Origin: Methylophilaceae bacterium 11
GTDB lineage: Bacteria > Pseudomonadota > Gammaproteobacteria > Burkholderiales > Methylophilaceae
Direction of reading: 5' to 3'
Assembly (NCBI GenBank): GCA_000525025.1
Contig: JCKJ01000001.1
Span: 2,046,001 to 2,110,000 of the forward strand
DNA length: 64,000 nucleotides
Under the pieces are notes generated by a model that was given only the letters and a program-made list of their open reading frames with translations, did no database searches and was not told the DNA's origin. A program made the translations under genes and the position numbers. Shown piece by piece: positions 33,552-45,644 of the stretch. Position 1 is the first letter of the stretch, and the number at the start of each line of letters is the position of its first letter.

Positions 33552-33758
33552 CGTTCTATCTTGGCAACACGTCTCACTGAAGTTCTTACCATTAATTAGG
33601 GCATAGCAAGGCTAACTAATTCAAAATTTTCCAATTAATCTATCTTCGCCTAGAATCATAATCATATTTAATACAAGCGCAGAAACAACCAAATCAAGAA
33701 GAAAAGCACCCATTCCTTTGTAGCCGCTGATAAACACCTATGAGCCTATATAATGGCT

Positions 33759-34315
33759 GTTAAAGGGGAAGTCCACATGAAAAACAAATTGACAGTGTTA
33801 CTCTGCTTATTCTTAACATCAGGTTGTGCAACTCGGTATCAACCATATAGCTACTTTGGTGGTGGCGGATACAGAGATGTACAACTCGCAGAAAATGTAT
33901 TCAAAGTTACTGTAGAGGCGAACGGCTACACATCAAGCTCAAAAGCAACAGATTTGGCTTTGCTCCGCTCGGCAGATTTAGCTATTCAGCATGGATTCAA
34001 GTATTTCATTATTGGTGCTATGTCAGACGATTCGCGCTCTTCTTCATATTCAACGCCGACAACCACAAACATAAATGTTACTAGCTACGGAAACGCTGCT
34101 CATGGCACCGCACAGACCTACGGCGGGCAAACATATTTTGTTCATTTCCCTGCCCCATCAATGACAATCACGTGTTTTAAGGAAAAGCCCACATTTAATA
34201 CAACAATCTATGATGCCGAATTGGCCTCCAAATCGTTACGAGCACAATTAGGTGTCAAACAGCCTTAACCCATTATTCAAGTGACGATGATTAGCGATGC
34301 CTCTTACCTCCAACG
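33759..34315 (+). mobile_element. Candidate solitary gene cassette (lipoprotein gene plus decayed attC)
   Basis: The lipoprotein gene starts 18 bp after a GTTAAAGG core-like sequence at 33759 and is followed by an attC-like site whose R'' arm is CCTTAAC, nearly the complement of that start. Boundaries are inferred from the core-like sites; the left one carries one extra base relative to R''. Confidence 0.4.
33777..34268 (+). CDS. Lipoprotein, CC0125/CC1285-like
   Basis: About 163 aa from ATG 33777, chosen for its lipobox (LFLTSGC) and for AAAGGGGAAG upstream; the frame extends to 33753. The mature protein has YSYFGGGGYRDVQLAENVFKV near the N-terminus and a Ser/Thr/Asn-rich mid region (SSSYSTPTTTNINVTSYG). 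The block ANGYTSSSKATDLALLRSADLAI plus GFKYFIIG matches the small CC0125/CC1285-like lipoprotein family of unknown function. It is attached to the membrane by Cys lipidation. An attC-like sequence begins at its stop codon, so the gene may have arrived as an integron cassette. Confidence 0.85.
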   Translation: MKNKLTVLLCLFLTSGCATRYQPYSYFGGGGYRDVQLAENVFKVTVEANGYTSSSKATDLALLRSADLAIQHGFKYFIIGAMSDDSRSSSYSTPTTTNINVTSYGNAAHGTAQTYGGQTYFVHFPAPSMTITCFKEKPTFNTTIYDAELASKSLRAQLGVKQP

Positions 34316-34321
34316 TTAATT
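34262..34321 (+). repeat. Degenerate attC-like recombination site
   Basis: GCCTTAACCCATTATTCAAG at the left and CTTACCTCCAACGTTAAT at the right. The left half matches attC1 (TAACCCATCATTCAAG) at 15 of 16 positions. The right half deviates from the attC1 end at about three positions, and the central stem is poor, so it is probably decayed. Confidence 0.5.
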
Positions 34322-41482: not shown

Positions 41483-42952
41483 ATGCTCATTTGGTTTGTC
41501 ATCGTTTATCTCATGATTTCAATTGGGATTGGCCTAGTCGCCGCCACCCGCGTACACAACACCAAAGATTATGCCGTGGCTGGCCGCCACCTACCCTTGC
41601 CAGTAGTCATGGCCACCGTATTTGCCACTTGGTTTGGTGCAGAAGCCGTATTTGGGGTATCCGCGACCTTTGTGCAAGAGGGCCTCAACGGCGTAGCTGC
41701 AGACCCCTTTGGCTCCAGCATGTGCTTGATTATTGCCGGCTTCTTTTTCTCCACACAACTCTACAAACTCAACATTATTACCTTGGGTGATTTCTACCGT
41801 ATGCGCTACAACCGCAGCGTAGAAGTACTCACCACCATTGCCATTGTTGTATCGTATTTAGGCTGGGTAGCCGCACAAATCAAGGCACTCGGCCTGATCT
41901 TTAATATGATTACGCATGGCGCTATTAGCGAAGAAGCAGGCATGATTTTAGGCACCGCCATTGTGCTCACCTACACCACGCTTGGCGGCATGTTATCTGT
42001 GGCAGTGCTAGATTTTGTACAAATGATCGTTGTCATTGGCGGCTTACTGTATATCGGCAGTATCGTTTCCGGCATGACAGGTGGCGTAGCCCCGGTGATT
42101 GAGCATGCACGCCAAGCGGGCAAGCTAGACTTCTTCCCCAAAGGAGCAGACGTTTGGGTATGGATTACCTTTTTAGGTGGCTGGGTCACCATGATGCTAG
42201 GTTCCATTCCGCAACAGGATGTATTCCAACGCATCACCTCTGCCAAGAGCGCCAAGATTGCATTGTGGGGCTCGCTGTTAGGGGCAAGCGTGTACTTTTG
42301 CTTTACCTTTGTGCCCATGTTTATTGCCTACTCTGCCACGTTGATTGACCCGGCTGTCTATGGAAAACTGGTGGCAGAAGACTCACAACGTGTATTACCT
42401 ACGTTAGTGCTAGAACACACGCCCTTGTTAGCGCAAGCCATTTTCTTTGGCGCAGTCTTATCAGCTATTATGAGTTGCTCCTCTGCCACCTTGCTTGCGC
42501 CGTCTGTCAGCTTTGCCGAGAATATTGTTAAAGGCTATATGCCTCACCTCACCGACAAAGGCTTTCTAAGGGTCATGCGCTTCTGTTTAGTGGGTTTTGC
42601 CATATGCGTTTTACTCTACGCACTCAATTCAGAGCTCTCGATTTTCGGCATGGTGGAATCTGCTTATAAAATCACACTGGCTGGCGCATTTATTCCACTT
42701 ATTTTTGGCGCATTCTGGAAGCGCTCTACCAGCCAAGGCGCGCTTGCAGCCATTGTTGGCGGCATTGGTAGCTGGGTGCTGATTGAAGTACTGATTGGCG
42801 AAGCAAGCCTGATTCCACCACAACTGATAGGCTTGGCCGTGAGCGCAGTGGGCATGGTGGCTGGCTCGTTATTGCCACAAAAAATTGGCGGCAACCCGGA
42901 AAAACCACAGGGCTATTTGCATGAGCATGCAGCAAGACCGCATCAGCATTAG
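41483..42952 (+). CDS. Sodium:solute symporter family transporter
   Basis: 489 aa, thirteen or so hydrophobic helices. Family features include the NTKDYAVAGRHLPLP segment after helix 1, FATWFGAEAVFGVSATF in helix 2, and the SSS signature region GGWVTMMLGSIPQQDVFQRI. It should take up an organic solute with sodium across the inner membrane; substrate unknown. The His-rich C-terminus (EHAARPHQH) is notable. It is the last core gene before the cassette array that starts at 43091. Confidence 0.93.
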   Translation: MLIWFVIVYLMISIGIGLVAATRVHNTKDYAVAGRHLPLPVVMATVFATWFGAEAVFGVSATFVQEGLNGVAADPFGSSMCLIIAGFFFSTQLYKLNIITLGDFYRMRYNRSVEVLTTIAIVVSYLGWVAAQIKALGLIFNMITHGAISEEAGMILGTAIVLTYTTLGGMLSVAVLDFVQMIVVIGGLLYIGSIVSGMTGGVAPVIEHARQAGKLDFFPKGADVWVWITFLGGWVTMMLGSIPQQDVFQRITSAKSAKIALWGSLLGASVYFCFTFVPMFIAYSATLIDPAVYGKLVAEDSQRVLPTLVLEHTPLLAQAIFFGAVLSAIMSCSSATLLAPSVSFAENIVKGYMPHLTDKGFLRVMRFCLVGFAICVLLYALNSELSIFGMVESAYKITLAGAFIPLIFGAFWKRSTSQGALAAIVGGIGSWVLIEVLIGEASLIPPQLIGLAVSAVGMVAGSLLPQKIGGNPEKPQGYLHEHAARPHQH

Positions 42953-43101
42953 CTGATGTATTGCATCATATTTTTAGGCTGTACTAAACTTAAATAACCC
43001 AATGAATATATTGAAAATAGTGCGTATTTTTACAACATTAAAGACATGTTTGACGGAATGTTTTACGTCAAATAGGATGTTTACTTTACGTTAGAGCCCA
43101 C

Positions 43102-43752
43102 ATGAATATTGATTCACTAAAACGAAGAGCAAAAGCCAATACGCTCCAAGTTGAGCACATTCTTGAAGCGGCAGTTGAAAAAACACCTGGATTGGCTGCA
43201 ACTTTAGCAATACTCGCCGAAGAATATAAATGGCCTAATGCAAATAAGCTTCCTGATGGATCTCTTGTGGTGCCCTTTGGACGGTGGTGCAAAGTTGCAG
43301 TCGCTTATGCGGATGGCGGGTTCGACTCACTCATGCAATTAACCAAAGATGATAATGAGACCTCGTTCATACTTGCTCTAGCTAAACAGATAAAAACGCA
43401 AGAGTCTATCAATTTTGTTTTAAGCGCATACAAACCTTTCATGGTTGAACCATCAAAAAATATAGAAACTTCTATTATAGTTGCGAGTGCACTAAATTTA
43501 ATGTTGTCATTCAAAGACGCAGCACCTATATCATCAGAGCAAGCACAATTTATTGAAAGCTTTTTACTTAGTCTTTACCCTCTTGCTGATACCGAGGTTG
43601 CTCGTGCAGTCGCTATCTTGGGGTTGCGGGGAGTGGGCGGCAAACGTGCACTTGATTTTGTTAAAGAGCTACCCGAGTTATCGGCAACTTGGGAAAGTTC
43701 TAGGCAGTCAACTTTGAGGGTTTTAAGAAAACGAGTGAAAAATGCGCTCTAA
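43102..43752 (+). CDS. Cassette 1: unknown protein, helical (HEAT-repeat-like)
   Basis: 216 aa, no signal peptide and no membrane helix. It is strongly helical with repeating patterns (ESINFVLSAYKPFMVEPSK; TEVARAVAILGLRGVGGKRALDFVKEL), the latter like HEAT/PBS-lyase repeats. I recognise no characterised family. It starts 12 bp inside the cassette and its stop codon lies within the attC1 R'' arm. No ribosome site is seen before the ATG. The Ala/Ser-rich but AT-biased composition resembles the host more than cassette 2 does. Function unknown; in cassette arrays genes are carried as single adaptive units. Confidence 0.75.
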   Translation: MNIDSLKRRAKANTLQVEHILEAAVEKTPGLAATLAILAEEYKWPNANKLPDGSLVVPFGRWCKVAVAYADGGFDSLMQLTKDDNETSFILALAKQIKTQESINFVLSAYKPFMVEPSKNIETSIIVASALNLMLSFKDAAPISSEQAQFIESFLLSLYPLADTEVARAVAILGLRGVGGKRALDFVKELPELSATWESSRQSTLRVLRKRVKNAL

Positions 43753-43806
43753 CCCATCATTCAAGCGGGACTGGCTAAAGCCAGCCCCTTAATTCAAACG
43801 TTAGGC
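43746..43806 (+). repeat. attC1 recombination site
   Basis: R'' GCTCTAAC (43746), L'' in ATCATTCAAGCGGG, central stem ACTGGC-taaa-GCCAGC, L' CCCTTAATTCAAACG, then the core G|TTAGGC with the crossover after 43800. The left and right arms pair except for extrahelical bases, as needed for single-stranded attC folding. Confidence 0.9.
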
Positions 43807-43810
43807 CTCT

Positions 43811-44587
43811 ATGTCGTACTCAGCCGATAAAGCGCATGCCATTTTTAGTCAGTTGCCCGAGTTTGAAGCTACGCGGCTTCGCGAAATCGTGGGCATGGCA
43901 GAGCCATACATCGAAATCACAGACCGGTACGCGCGGCTTGTCTCGCGTCTAGTCAGCTTTCTTGGCCACCTTCCGCCAAAGGACGATCAAGACAGAGTCA
44001 TTCGAGATTTACTTGCAGACGTTTTCGACTTTCTCTATGAGGGGCGCGCGCTAATTCTGGGGGGCAAGCTCTCCGTTGCGTTCCCGCTGGCTCGTCGTGC
44101 CTACGAATCTCTCTCTCTTTTGCATCTTTGCACGGTAGAGCCGAAGTGGGCCACCAAGTGGCAGGCCGGCAAGCAGATTGGCAATGCTGAAGTCCGCAAG
44201 GCTTTGGGAGTTCACCCAATGGGCGAACCTGAAGCCGAAATGCAAGAACTCTACAAGTTCTTCTCTGAGGCCGCTCACCCCAACCGCAGCCTGGTTCCAC
44301 ACCGCTTCCTTGGAGAAGGAAACGAGTACGTGCTTGGGTTAATTGGCAAGCCGGAGTTGTACTTCGTCGTTGACTATTGCTCAAAGCATCTTGAGCTTTG
44401 GCATTGGCTAGCGGCTACCGTCAGCTACTTCTATCGTGAGTCAATCGGTCCAGCGGACGGAGCGTACTTTCAGGAGTACAACGAGTGTTTTGAGCAAGCA
44501 AAACCAGTTAAGAAATGGCTTGTCGAAAGCCTGCCTCAGCTGCGCGCTGAAGCTATAGAGATTGATCGAGAGGGCAGATCAACATGA
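43811..44587 (+). CDS. Cassette 2: unknown protein of 258 aa
   Basis: 258 aa, cytosolic, mostly helical (FEATRLREIVGMAEPYIEIT; LVSRLVSFLGHLP), with a central segment YEGRALILGGKLSVAFPLAR and an HPNRSLVPHRF motif. I do not recognise the family with certainty; the FFSEAAHPN and ARRAYESLSLLHL patterns recall DUF5677-like proteins of unknown function. The gene is noticeably richer in G+C than its neighbours. It starts ten bases inside its cassette. A 90-bp untranslated stretch with two CGCG-CCTT-CGCG hairpins lies between the stop and attC2. Confidence 0.72.
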   Translation: MSYSADKAHAIFSQLPEFEATRLREIVGMAEPYIEITDRYARLVSRLVSFLGHLPPKDDQDRVIRDLLADVFDFLYEGRALILGGKLSVAFPLARRAYESLSLLHLCTVEPKWATKWQAGKQIGNAEVRKALGVHPMGEPEAEMQELYKFFSEAAHPNRSLVPHRFLGEGNEYVLGLIGKPELYFVVDYCSKHLELWHWLAATVSYFYRESIGPADGAYFQEYNECFEQAKPVKKWLVESLPQLRAEAIEIDREGRST

Positions 44588-44676
44588 ATCTTCAGTTCGT
44601 TTATCAAATTCAACATCGCGCCTTCGCGGTCAGCATGAGTTCACATGCCAAGTGCAACACCGTGCCTTCGCGCAGC

Positions 44677-44748
44677 GGCCTAACTGGTCGTTCAACAGGA
44701 CGTCTACCAGCTTCGCTGGTAGCCTCCTGTTAACTCGGGCGTTAGGGG
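44677..44748 (+). repeat. attC2 recombination site
   Basis: R'' GGCCTAAC (44677-44684), then stem CAACAGGA...CTACCAGC-ttcg-GCTGGTAG...TCCTGTTAA, and core G|TTAGGGGC with the crossover after 44741. A different attC type from attC1 and attC3. Confidence 0.88.
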
Positions 44749-44766
44749 CGAAAGTGAAAGGCACAT

Positions 44767-45168
44767 ATGAAAGGTAGTTGTCTTTGCGGTGGGGTTGCAT
44801 ATGAAGTGTCTCAGCTTGACACTCCAATAAGTCATTGCTCATGTCAAACATGTAGAAAAGCTCATGCCGCTGCTTTTAATACTGCCGCTGGTGTTAAACA
44901 CTCAAGCTTTCGCTGGGTGCGTGGTCAGGAACTATTAAAGTCATTTGAGTCATCAAAGGGCAAACTCCGTTTTTTTTGTTCAAATTGTGGCACTCACTTA
45001 ATTGCCCAACGCACAGGGCAAGAGCATGTAGTTTTACGTGTAGCAACATTGGATGAGCCTCCTCAAAAAACCCCAGAATTTCATATTTTCAAATCTCACG
45101 AAGTTTCATGGCTTAAGTATGATGGAAAAATTCCTGCTTATTCTGAATGGCAGCCAGGCCGTGTTTAA
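44767..45168 (+). CDS. Cassette 3: GFA/CENP-V family zinc protein
   Basis: 133 aa. Zinc-ligand cysteines are at GSCLCGG, HCSCQTCRK and FFCSNCGTH, the pattern of the glutathione-dependent formaldehyde-activating (GFA)/CENP-V fold; HCSCQTCRKAHAAAFNT and AQRTG are family blocks. The founding member binds the glutathione-formaldehyde adduct, but most relatives have no proven activity. GAAAGG lies five bases before the ATG. GFA genes are among the more frequent integron-cassette cargoes; in a possible methylotroph a formaldehyde link is tempting but unproven. Confidence 0.93.
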   Translation: MKGSCLCGGVAYEVSQLDTPISHCSCQTCRKAHAAAFNTAAGVKHSSFRWVRGQELLKSFESSKGKLRFFCSNCGTHLIAQRTGQEHVVLRVATLDEPPQKTPEFHIFKSHEVSWLKYDGKIPAYSEWQPGRV

Positions 45169-45169
45169 T

Positions 45170-45229
45170 ACACCTATCCAATCATTCAAGCGGTACGCCT
45201 AACGGCGCCCCTAAATTCAAACGTTAGGC
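45170..45229 (+). repeat. attC3 recombination site
   Basis: R'' reads ACACCTATC, a damaged form of the GCCCCTAAC expected from the cassette 3 start. The rest is intact: ATCATTCAAGCGG, stem ACGCC-taac-GGCG, CCCCTAAATTCAAACG and core G|TTAGGC (crossover after 45223). Its flanks match attC1 over 13 and 16 bases. Confidence 0.85.
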
Positions 45230-45236
45230 AGCAACA

Positions 45237-45617
45237 ATGAATCGTCTAATATTCCTTCTGGTTTTAGTAGTCGCTAGCAGTACGGCAGTCGCTGCGCCAA
45301 CCTCAGCACCAGTTCGCGCCGAAATCGATGTCTTGCTGACCAATCTCCAAGCCTCCGGCTGTGAGTTCAGCCGCAATGGCGCTTGGTACAGCGGCGCAGA
45401 GGCCAAAGTTCACCTTCTCCGTAAGCTCGAATACCTAGAGGGCAAGAGCACGCTCCGCAGTACCGAACAGTTTATTGAGCTTGCTGCTTCGTCGAGCAGT
45501 TTCACCGGTCAGTCCTACCAAGTCAAATGCGGCAATACGCCGCCAGTTAAGAGCCAGCAATGGCTCACTAGGGAACTTGCCTCAATCCGCTCTTTGAGCA
45601 GCGGAGGCAAGCCATAA
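45237..45617 (+). CDS. Cassette 4: DUF5329 exported protein
   Basis: 126 aa with signal peptide (MNRLIFLLVLVVASSTAVAA). The mature part fits DUF5329: EIDVLLTNLQASGCEFSRNG, EAKVHLLRKLEYL, STEQFIELAASSSS and SYQVKCG, with two conserved cysteines able to form a disulfide in the periplasm. Function of the family is unknown. It begins 13 bp inside its cassette. Unlike the other three it has no attC after it: a 27-bp imperfect palindrome and then mutM follow within 28 bp. Confidence 0.88.
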   Translation: MNRLIFLLVLVVASSTAVAAPTSAPVRAEIDVLLTNLQASGCEFSRNGAWYSGAEAKVHLLRKLEYLEGKSTLRSTEQFIELAASSSSFTGQSYQVKCGNTPPVKSQQWLTRELASIRSLSSGGKP

Positions 45618-45643
45618 GTGCTGCCTGCATGCAGCCTAGCACT
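45617..45643. repeat. Palindrome at the array/mutM junction
   Basis: AGTGCT (45617) and AGCACT (45638) flank an inner CTGCATGCAG palindrome. It overlaps the cassette 4 stop codon and ends two bases before the mutM stop codon. It may be a bidirectional transcript end or a scar of a truncated attC. Confidence 0.55.
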
Positions 45644-45644
45644 G

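Follow-up and report, generated by a model that had tools for sequence, protein, structure and literature searches.

The array considered here lies between a symporter gene and mutM in the 2.79-Mb single-contig genome of Methylophilaceae bacterium 11 (handle G000). The window, i.e. the whole stretch analysed, comprises 64,000 nucleotides (bases 2046001-2110000), and positions without a contig prefix refer to it. The symporter gene stops at 42952. Directly behind its stop codon begins an element of sequence type B (42954..43094, + strand), composed of the putative former promoter region of an integron integrase gene (intI) and an integron attachment site (attI). It contains an inverted repeat, TTTGACG...CGTCAAA (43049..43072), overlapped by a putative cassette promoter, TTGACG-17-TAGGAT (43050..43078, + strand), which was found by a consensus scan. 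The element ends in the crossover sequence GTTAG (43090..43094, + strand), where the cut would be expected between 43090 and 43091, as at known attI sites. Four genes and three attC sites follow, all on the + strand. The gene of cassette 1 (43102..43752) encodes 216 aa and is followed by attC1 (43747..43806). That of cassette 2 (43811..44587) encodes 258 aa and precedes attC2 (44678..44747). Cassette 3 carries a gene (44767..45168) for a 133 aa protein of the GFA family (PF04828, E 5.8e-25) with attC3 behind it (45172..45229). The last gene (45237..45617) codes for a 126 aa DUF5329 protein (PF17263, E 2.2e-33).

The attC sites were scored with a covariance model trained on 16 sites from other genomes and none from the host. 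attC1 reaches 84.1 bits (E 1.4e-22) and is almost letter-identical to the attC sites of the integron beside intI; attC3 reaches 56.0 bits (E 3.5e-14). attC2 belongs to a different sequence type and scores weakly (22.1 bits, E 4.5e-4), yet R'' (GCCTAAC) and R' (GTTAGGG) boxes and a hairpin (minimum free energy -34.8) are present. Between the last gene and mutM, the model finds no attC match in the window. A preliminary description, made from the letters of the window, had proposed three attC sites separating four small co-oriented genes, two of them for proteins without a nameable family, in a window free of intI. All this holds: the sites rise above background, open reading frames (ORFs) of the four sizes given occupy the spaces between them, Pfam confirms GFA and DUF5329, and proteins 1 and 2 stay below the cut-off in Pfam and NCBIfam. 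The sole intI match above cut-off in the genome and five weaker ones all lie outside the window. Two corrections are required. The unit starts at 42954 and not at 43091, as the preceding stretch is the attI element, and the view of all four genes as cassettes is borne out for the first three, each with an attC behind it, and not for the DUF5329 gene, which has none of its own. An Rfam scan of the window yields only tRNAs.

The same description had labelled the locus a CALIN (cluster of attC sites lacking integron integrases). The label is right by the usual definition: there are at least two clustered attC sites (here three within 1.5 kb), the cassette genes share one orientation, and no intI lies nearby. 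With a complete sedentary chromosomal integron the locus shares attI, a cassette array and attC sites of the same class; it differs in that no intI adjoins attI, and the symporter stop codon sits in its place. The label falls short in one respect, since the array begins with an attI element of the genus. Judged by its sequence, it is an attI-led array whose integrase gene is missing and no plain CALIN, because the stretch between symporter stop codon and first cassette is homologous to the intI-attI intergenic regions of integrons that possess intI. Our attI model (R2; 18 training sequences, none from the host genome) has a single match in the window, at 42966-43094 (58.1 bits, E 5.5e-17). The element is 77% identical over 127 bp to the intI-attI intergenic region of the main integron of one relative (G015) and 75% identical over 142 bp to another site in that genome. 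Local alignment of 42954-43094 with these two attI regions gives scores of 67 and 68, and the controls reach at most 17 (300 shuffles) and 21 (300 AT-rich window pieces). A reading of the conserved left edge as a cassette-like boundary was dropped, as no GTT core precedes it.

The host genome contains a full-length intI at C1:1651411-1652355 (490 bits, cut-off 265), ~437 kb from the array. In the fetched stretches 25 attC sites were found: eight beside intI, ten at an attI without intI at 276 kb, three in the window array, one behind a partial attI at 443 kb, two in a cluster without attI match and one alone. A search of the whole genome likewise gives 25, of which 21 were itemised. The biggest array of the host (ten attC, C1:268000-282000) stands at the 276-kb attI and exceeds the eight-attC array on the intI side.

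Integrase-less attI sites recur throughout the genus. Among 22 same-genus genomes, the host included, 20 carry intI at E ≤ 1e-50, the cut-off used for genus and family alike. The attI model returns 54 rows in 18 of the 22. By manual comparison of coordinates, 19 rows lie beside intI and 35 away from it. Thirty of the 35 were analysed together with one element found by pattern search (G005, 1883 kb; a weak attI model match of 16.1 bits), and these 31 orphan attI are distributed over 15 of the 22 genomes. The other five intI-distant rows, outside the analysed set, are one in G012:C25 (E 1.5e-6) and two each in G014 and G013 (E 0.0016-0.0096). By their upstream flanks, 21 of the 31 orphans fall into six orthologous groups (S1-S6). 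Twenty have attC sites of the modelled type on the same strand within 6 kb downstream (57 in total); in the fetched stretches, within 8 kb, no attC occurs on the opposite strand or upstream. G017 and G018, the two genomes of the genus without intI, yield no attI row either. In the family, attI rows at E ≤ 1e-4 are present in 49 of 120 genomes and 11 of 24 genera, with up to five per genome. The main integron occupies the same chromosomal place in four species, of which two have intI of type A and two of type B (~72% identical to A); this looks as if integrase and attI had been exchanged as an allele.

Content differs from the end of attI onward. In all six groups, the final 50 bp of attI have a mean identity of 0.74-0.84, and the 50 bp behind them one of 0.19-0.46. 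The sister species G014 and G021 were compared at three satellite sites, i.e. orphan attI. Their 6-kb upstream flanks are 96.6-97.8% identical and their downstream flanks 96.8-98.7%, and the intervals in between differ, with only one 81-bp and one 107-bp match aligning. The upstream identity at S1 and S2 breaks off where attI ends, give or take about one base, and S3 combines a flank of 97.8% identity with an attI of 86%. For the main arrays of the two sisters, an alignment of 16.6 kb that extends 2.5 kb beyond attI shows 97.6% identity. In this pair, the array beside intI is unchanged and the three satellites differ in content. Stretches are also common to different places: a first cassette at the 276-kb orphan attI of the host and at the main attI of G013 (89% over 330 bp), a stretch at G004 318 kb and the main site of G008 (94%, 479 bp), and another at the main site of G005 and G014 C7 (83%, 351 bp).

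How could an attI come to stand without its integrase? One orphan, G004_352k, has retained an N-terminal intI remnant (profile positions 2-49, E 6.7e-4), and a second remnant may exist at G005_1522k, where it was seen by eye. Inspection by eye also shows that, in many orphan elements, the retained region reaches roughly to the first few codons of intI. Elsewhere in the family, in G362, G339 and G349 from other genera, attI rows have interrupted or shortened intI matches no more than ~500 bp away. These broken genes beside attI and the remnant of G004_352k fit a loss of intI with attI kept. In one of these genomes, two attI rows on the same strand are only ~1.1 kb apart (G339:C4:128215 and 129303).

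We consider it probable that the window array is such a satellite port, one that remained when intI was lost and that the resident IntI continues to load in trans. At this place between symporter and mutM, an older integron would once have existed. The loss of its intI would have reached right back to the symporter stop codon and spared ~141 bp, comprising the intI promoter region of that integron, attI and a putative cassette promoter directed outward. IntI from the main integron ~437 kb away would then insert cassettes at the window attI and remove them, recombining attC into it as the content differences from the attI end onward in relatives suggest. With promoter activity at the element, a single integrase would serve several cassette positions close to a promoter in this genome. 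The preliminary description had seen past integron activity in trans. This is plausible and supported by the relatives; the attI lead, the intI elsewhere in the genome and the recurrence across the genus had escaped it.

A number of observations weigh against loading in trans. The resident intI is of type A and the window attI of type B, so that recognition across types is putative. Apart from G004_352k, no orphan (30 of 31) shows an intI remnant by profile, the values being no better than on the opposite-strand control; when the 3 kb preceding each of the 31 orphans were searched by tblastn with four intI proteins, nothing was returned at E 0.5. Downstream of eleven of the 31, among them G014_671k (S1) and G021_810k (S3), no attC of the modelled type occurs, and six of the 31 belonged to the training set of the attI model. 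Five of the 20 same-genus genomes with intI carry none of the 31 orphans. In the family, intI was looked for in 16 of 21 genomes outside the genus with two or more attI rows, and four of the 16 show none at the cut-off, which means that attI can persist without intI. Between the sisters, only S2 has modelled attC sites in both intervals (2 and 3), and a Y1 transposase-like gene is located in the G021 interval at S3; parts of the intervals may thus be something other than cassettes. The proteins of cassettes 1 and 2 have no relative in the 21 other same-genus genomes or in 299 genomes of the order; a swap at the window itself is hence not demonstrated. At the orthologous gap, an attI remnant occurs in only one of 19 loci (G006). 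As to the promoter, the scanned region contains one promoter-like match and 2.7 are expected in its shuffles, which is not significant alone, and element-by-element scoring is not significant either (lowest + strand p 0.05, 200 shuffles).

Some of these points would suit a history in which a complete integron lost intI, attI became a fossil and the cassettes have been frozen since. The mismatch of attI and intI types, the missing attC behind the last gene, the decayed look of G006 and G001 at the same locus and the four family genomes with attI and without detected intI all agree with it, and integrase-less arrays are usually read as degraded integrons. Against a fossil stand orphan attI elsewhere in the genus, whose contents differ between sister species with ~97% identical flanks. 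Moreover, the attI element is better conserved than the preceding 100 bp in four of six groups (S2, S3, S4, S6; not S1 and S5). We regard a frozen array as unlikely.

Still less likely is that homologous recombination between strains, and not IntI acting in trans on the orphan attI, moved the cassettes or segments of the array. The highly similar upstream flanks would permit such exchange, related species carry different intI types at the main integron locus, and some intervals contain transposase-like genes. Exchange is disfavoured because it would be expected to leave scattered breaks, whereas at two sites of the sister pair the left break coincides with the attI end to about one base, and in all six groups it lies in the 50 bp that follow attI. 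An insertion at a non-classical genomic site (attG) that merely resembles attI at its edge, the alternative weighed first, is highly improbable and was rejected: passages of one report (PMC12444791) describe such insertions, and they too would leave a cluster without intI, but the left junction proved to be attI, with homology that spans 141 bp including the intI promoter region and not just a short core.

We suggest tentatively, and with somewhat less confidence than an even chance would warrant, a multi-port integron: one integrase would load several conserved integrase-less attI, each with its own cassette promoter, across the genus and probably the family. The sites would have been selected for multiplying the first-cassette positions that are expressed, and satellites could turn over while the array on the intI side stands still. 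Expression models place a promoter near the first cassettes only. Should many integrase-less arrays start with a live attI, they would be extra loading ports, and cassette counts, expression models and mobility estimates would change. The genus, with orthologous ports in genomes with and without intI, is a natural experiment for this.

Related arrays have been described elsewhere. According to the accessible parts of the respective articles, a survey of sequenced bacteria with IntegronFinder 2 counted 2961 integrase-less arrays and 2760 complete integrons, roughly equal numbers, and attI detection by the program is limited to class 1 integrons (PMC9024848). AttI-led arrays such as the present one would be filed as plain CALINs because IntegronFinder detects only class 1 attI. 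Excerpts of two papers discuss mobilisation of CALINs in trans (PMC12444791; PMC9668308). The nearest known case is a CALIN on the Shewanella prophage M16-3, which, in the available text, likewise starts with its own attI, lacks an integrase and shares its genome with a complete integron (PMC9892861). As presented there, it is a single case on an inactive prophage, whereas the sites reported here are many, chromosomal, orthologous across species and different in content. The conserved-position CALINs of Xanthomonas resemble ours as integrase-less arrays at recurrent chromosomal places away from intI; the passages available mention no attI (PMC12444791), whereas here attI marks the recurrent positions. 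Thus, one attI-led CALIN is already in print, and the genus-wide set of conserved satellite attI is new. Our search of open PubMed Central papers, with subscription papers outside its range, found no report of conserved integrase-less attI sets.

In type-B elements, the inverted repeat is placed ~18-42 bp before the crossover and shows paired changes. Across 18 such elements its covariation is 0.265, compared to 0.122 in shuffles that keep relatedness in (0 of 500 as high) and to at most 0.135 in slid controls. The string TTGACG-17-TAGGAT of the window element has an equally placed copy in six other type-B elements; others of this type carry it ~98 bp upstream of this position, at or inside what was the start of intI. 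Of 45 elements, 18 contain it at one of these two places; all of them are type B, and only that of the G019 main integron has it at both. These strings may be cassette promoters, a possible reason for the retention of attI. The repeat that overlaps the putative promoter may be an operator or a leader hairpin.

The neighbourhood of the array is conserved. The order symporter, gap, mutM is kept in all 19 same-genus loci; these come from the 21 other genomes, two of which had no usable locus. Measured between the alignments, 16 of the 19 gaps span 1.3-1.8 kb, one spans 977 bp, and the remaining two 66 and 5 bp. A GGEEF motif is encoded on the + strand in 15 of 19 gaps, so a GGDEF-type gene is the usual content. 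The expectation of an empty site between symporter gene and mutM in relatives is matched only loosely: apart from the 15, two gaps are nearly empty and two close relatives have other genes. The gaps of G000, G001 and G006 are without a GGEEF gene. G006 combines a weak attI remnant (14.1 bits, E 0.013) with other genes; in G001, an attC-like site (26.8 bits) is present along with a different gene.

Proteins without an assigned role are common among cassettes. Proteins 1 and 2, already without match in the family databases, have none in PADLOC and none on plasmids. Protein 1 has a single PHROG match (E 0.045) that is taken as chance, and protein 2 matches no PDB sequence. Structure models computed without alignments are poor, with a mean pLDDT (predicted local distance difference test) of 55.7 and 54.2, respectively. 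No further member of the genus appeared in the search of the order (299 genomes), and the 21 same-genus genomes were searched separately. Six of seven ORFs scanned from S1 and S3 intervals are likewise without a Pfam family. One Y1 transposase-like gene behind a satellite attI lies at L131:4544-5089 (- strand; PF01797, E 9.2e-8), and a ~650-bp stretch covering the gene is 90-93% alike at several S1 and S3 sites.

Three smaller cassette loci complete the inventory of the host. At 443 kb (C1:437500-449500), the partial type-B attI (~20 bits) has its attC 522 bp downstream. At 2610 kb (C1:2604500-2616500), two attC sites without attI match form a plain CALIN. A lone cassette-like unit is present in the window itself (33753-34321), between a RelA/SpoT-family gene and a sigma-70-family gene; an ORF of 171 aa that matches no Pfam family is followed there by an attC site at 34263-34321 (28.6 bits).

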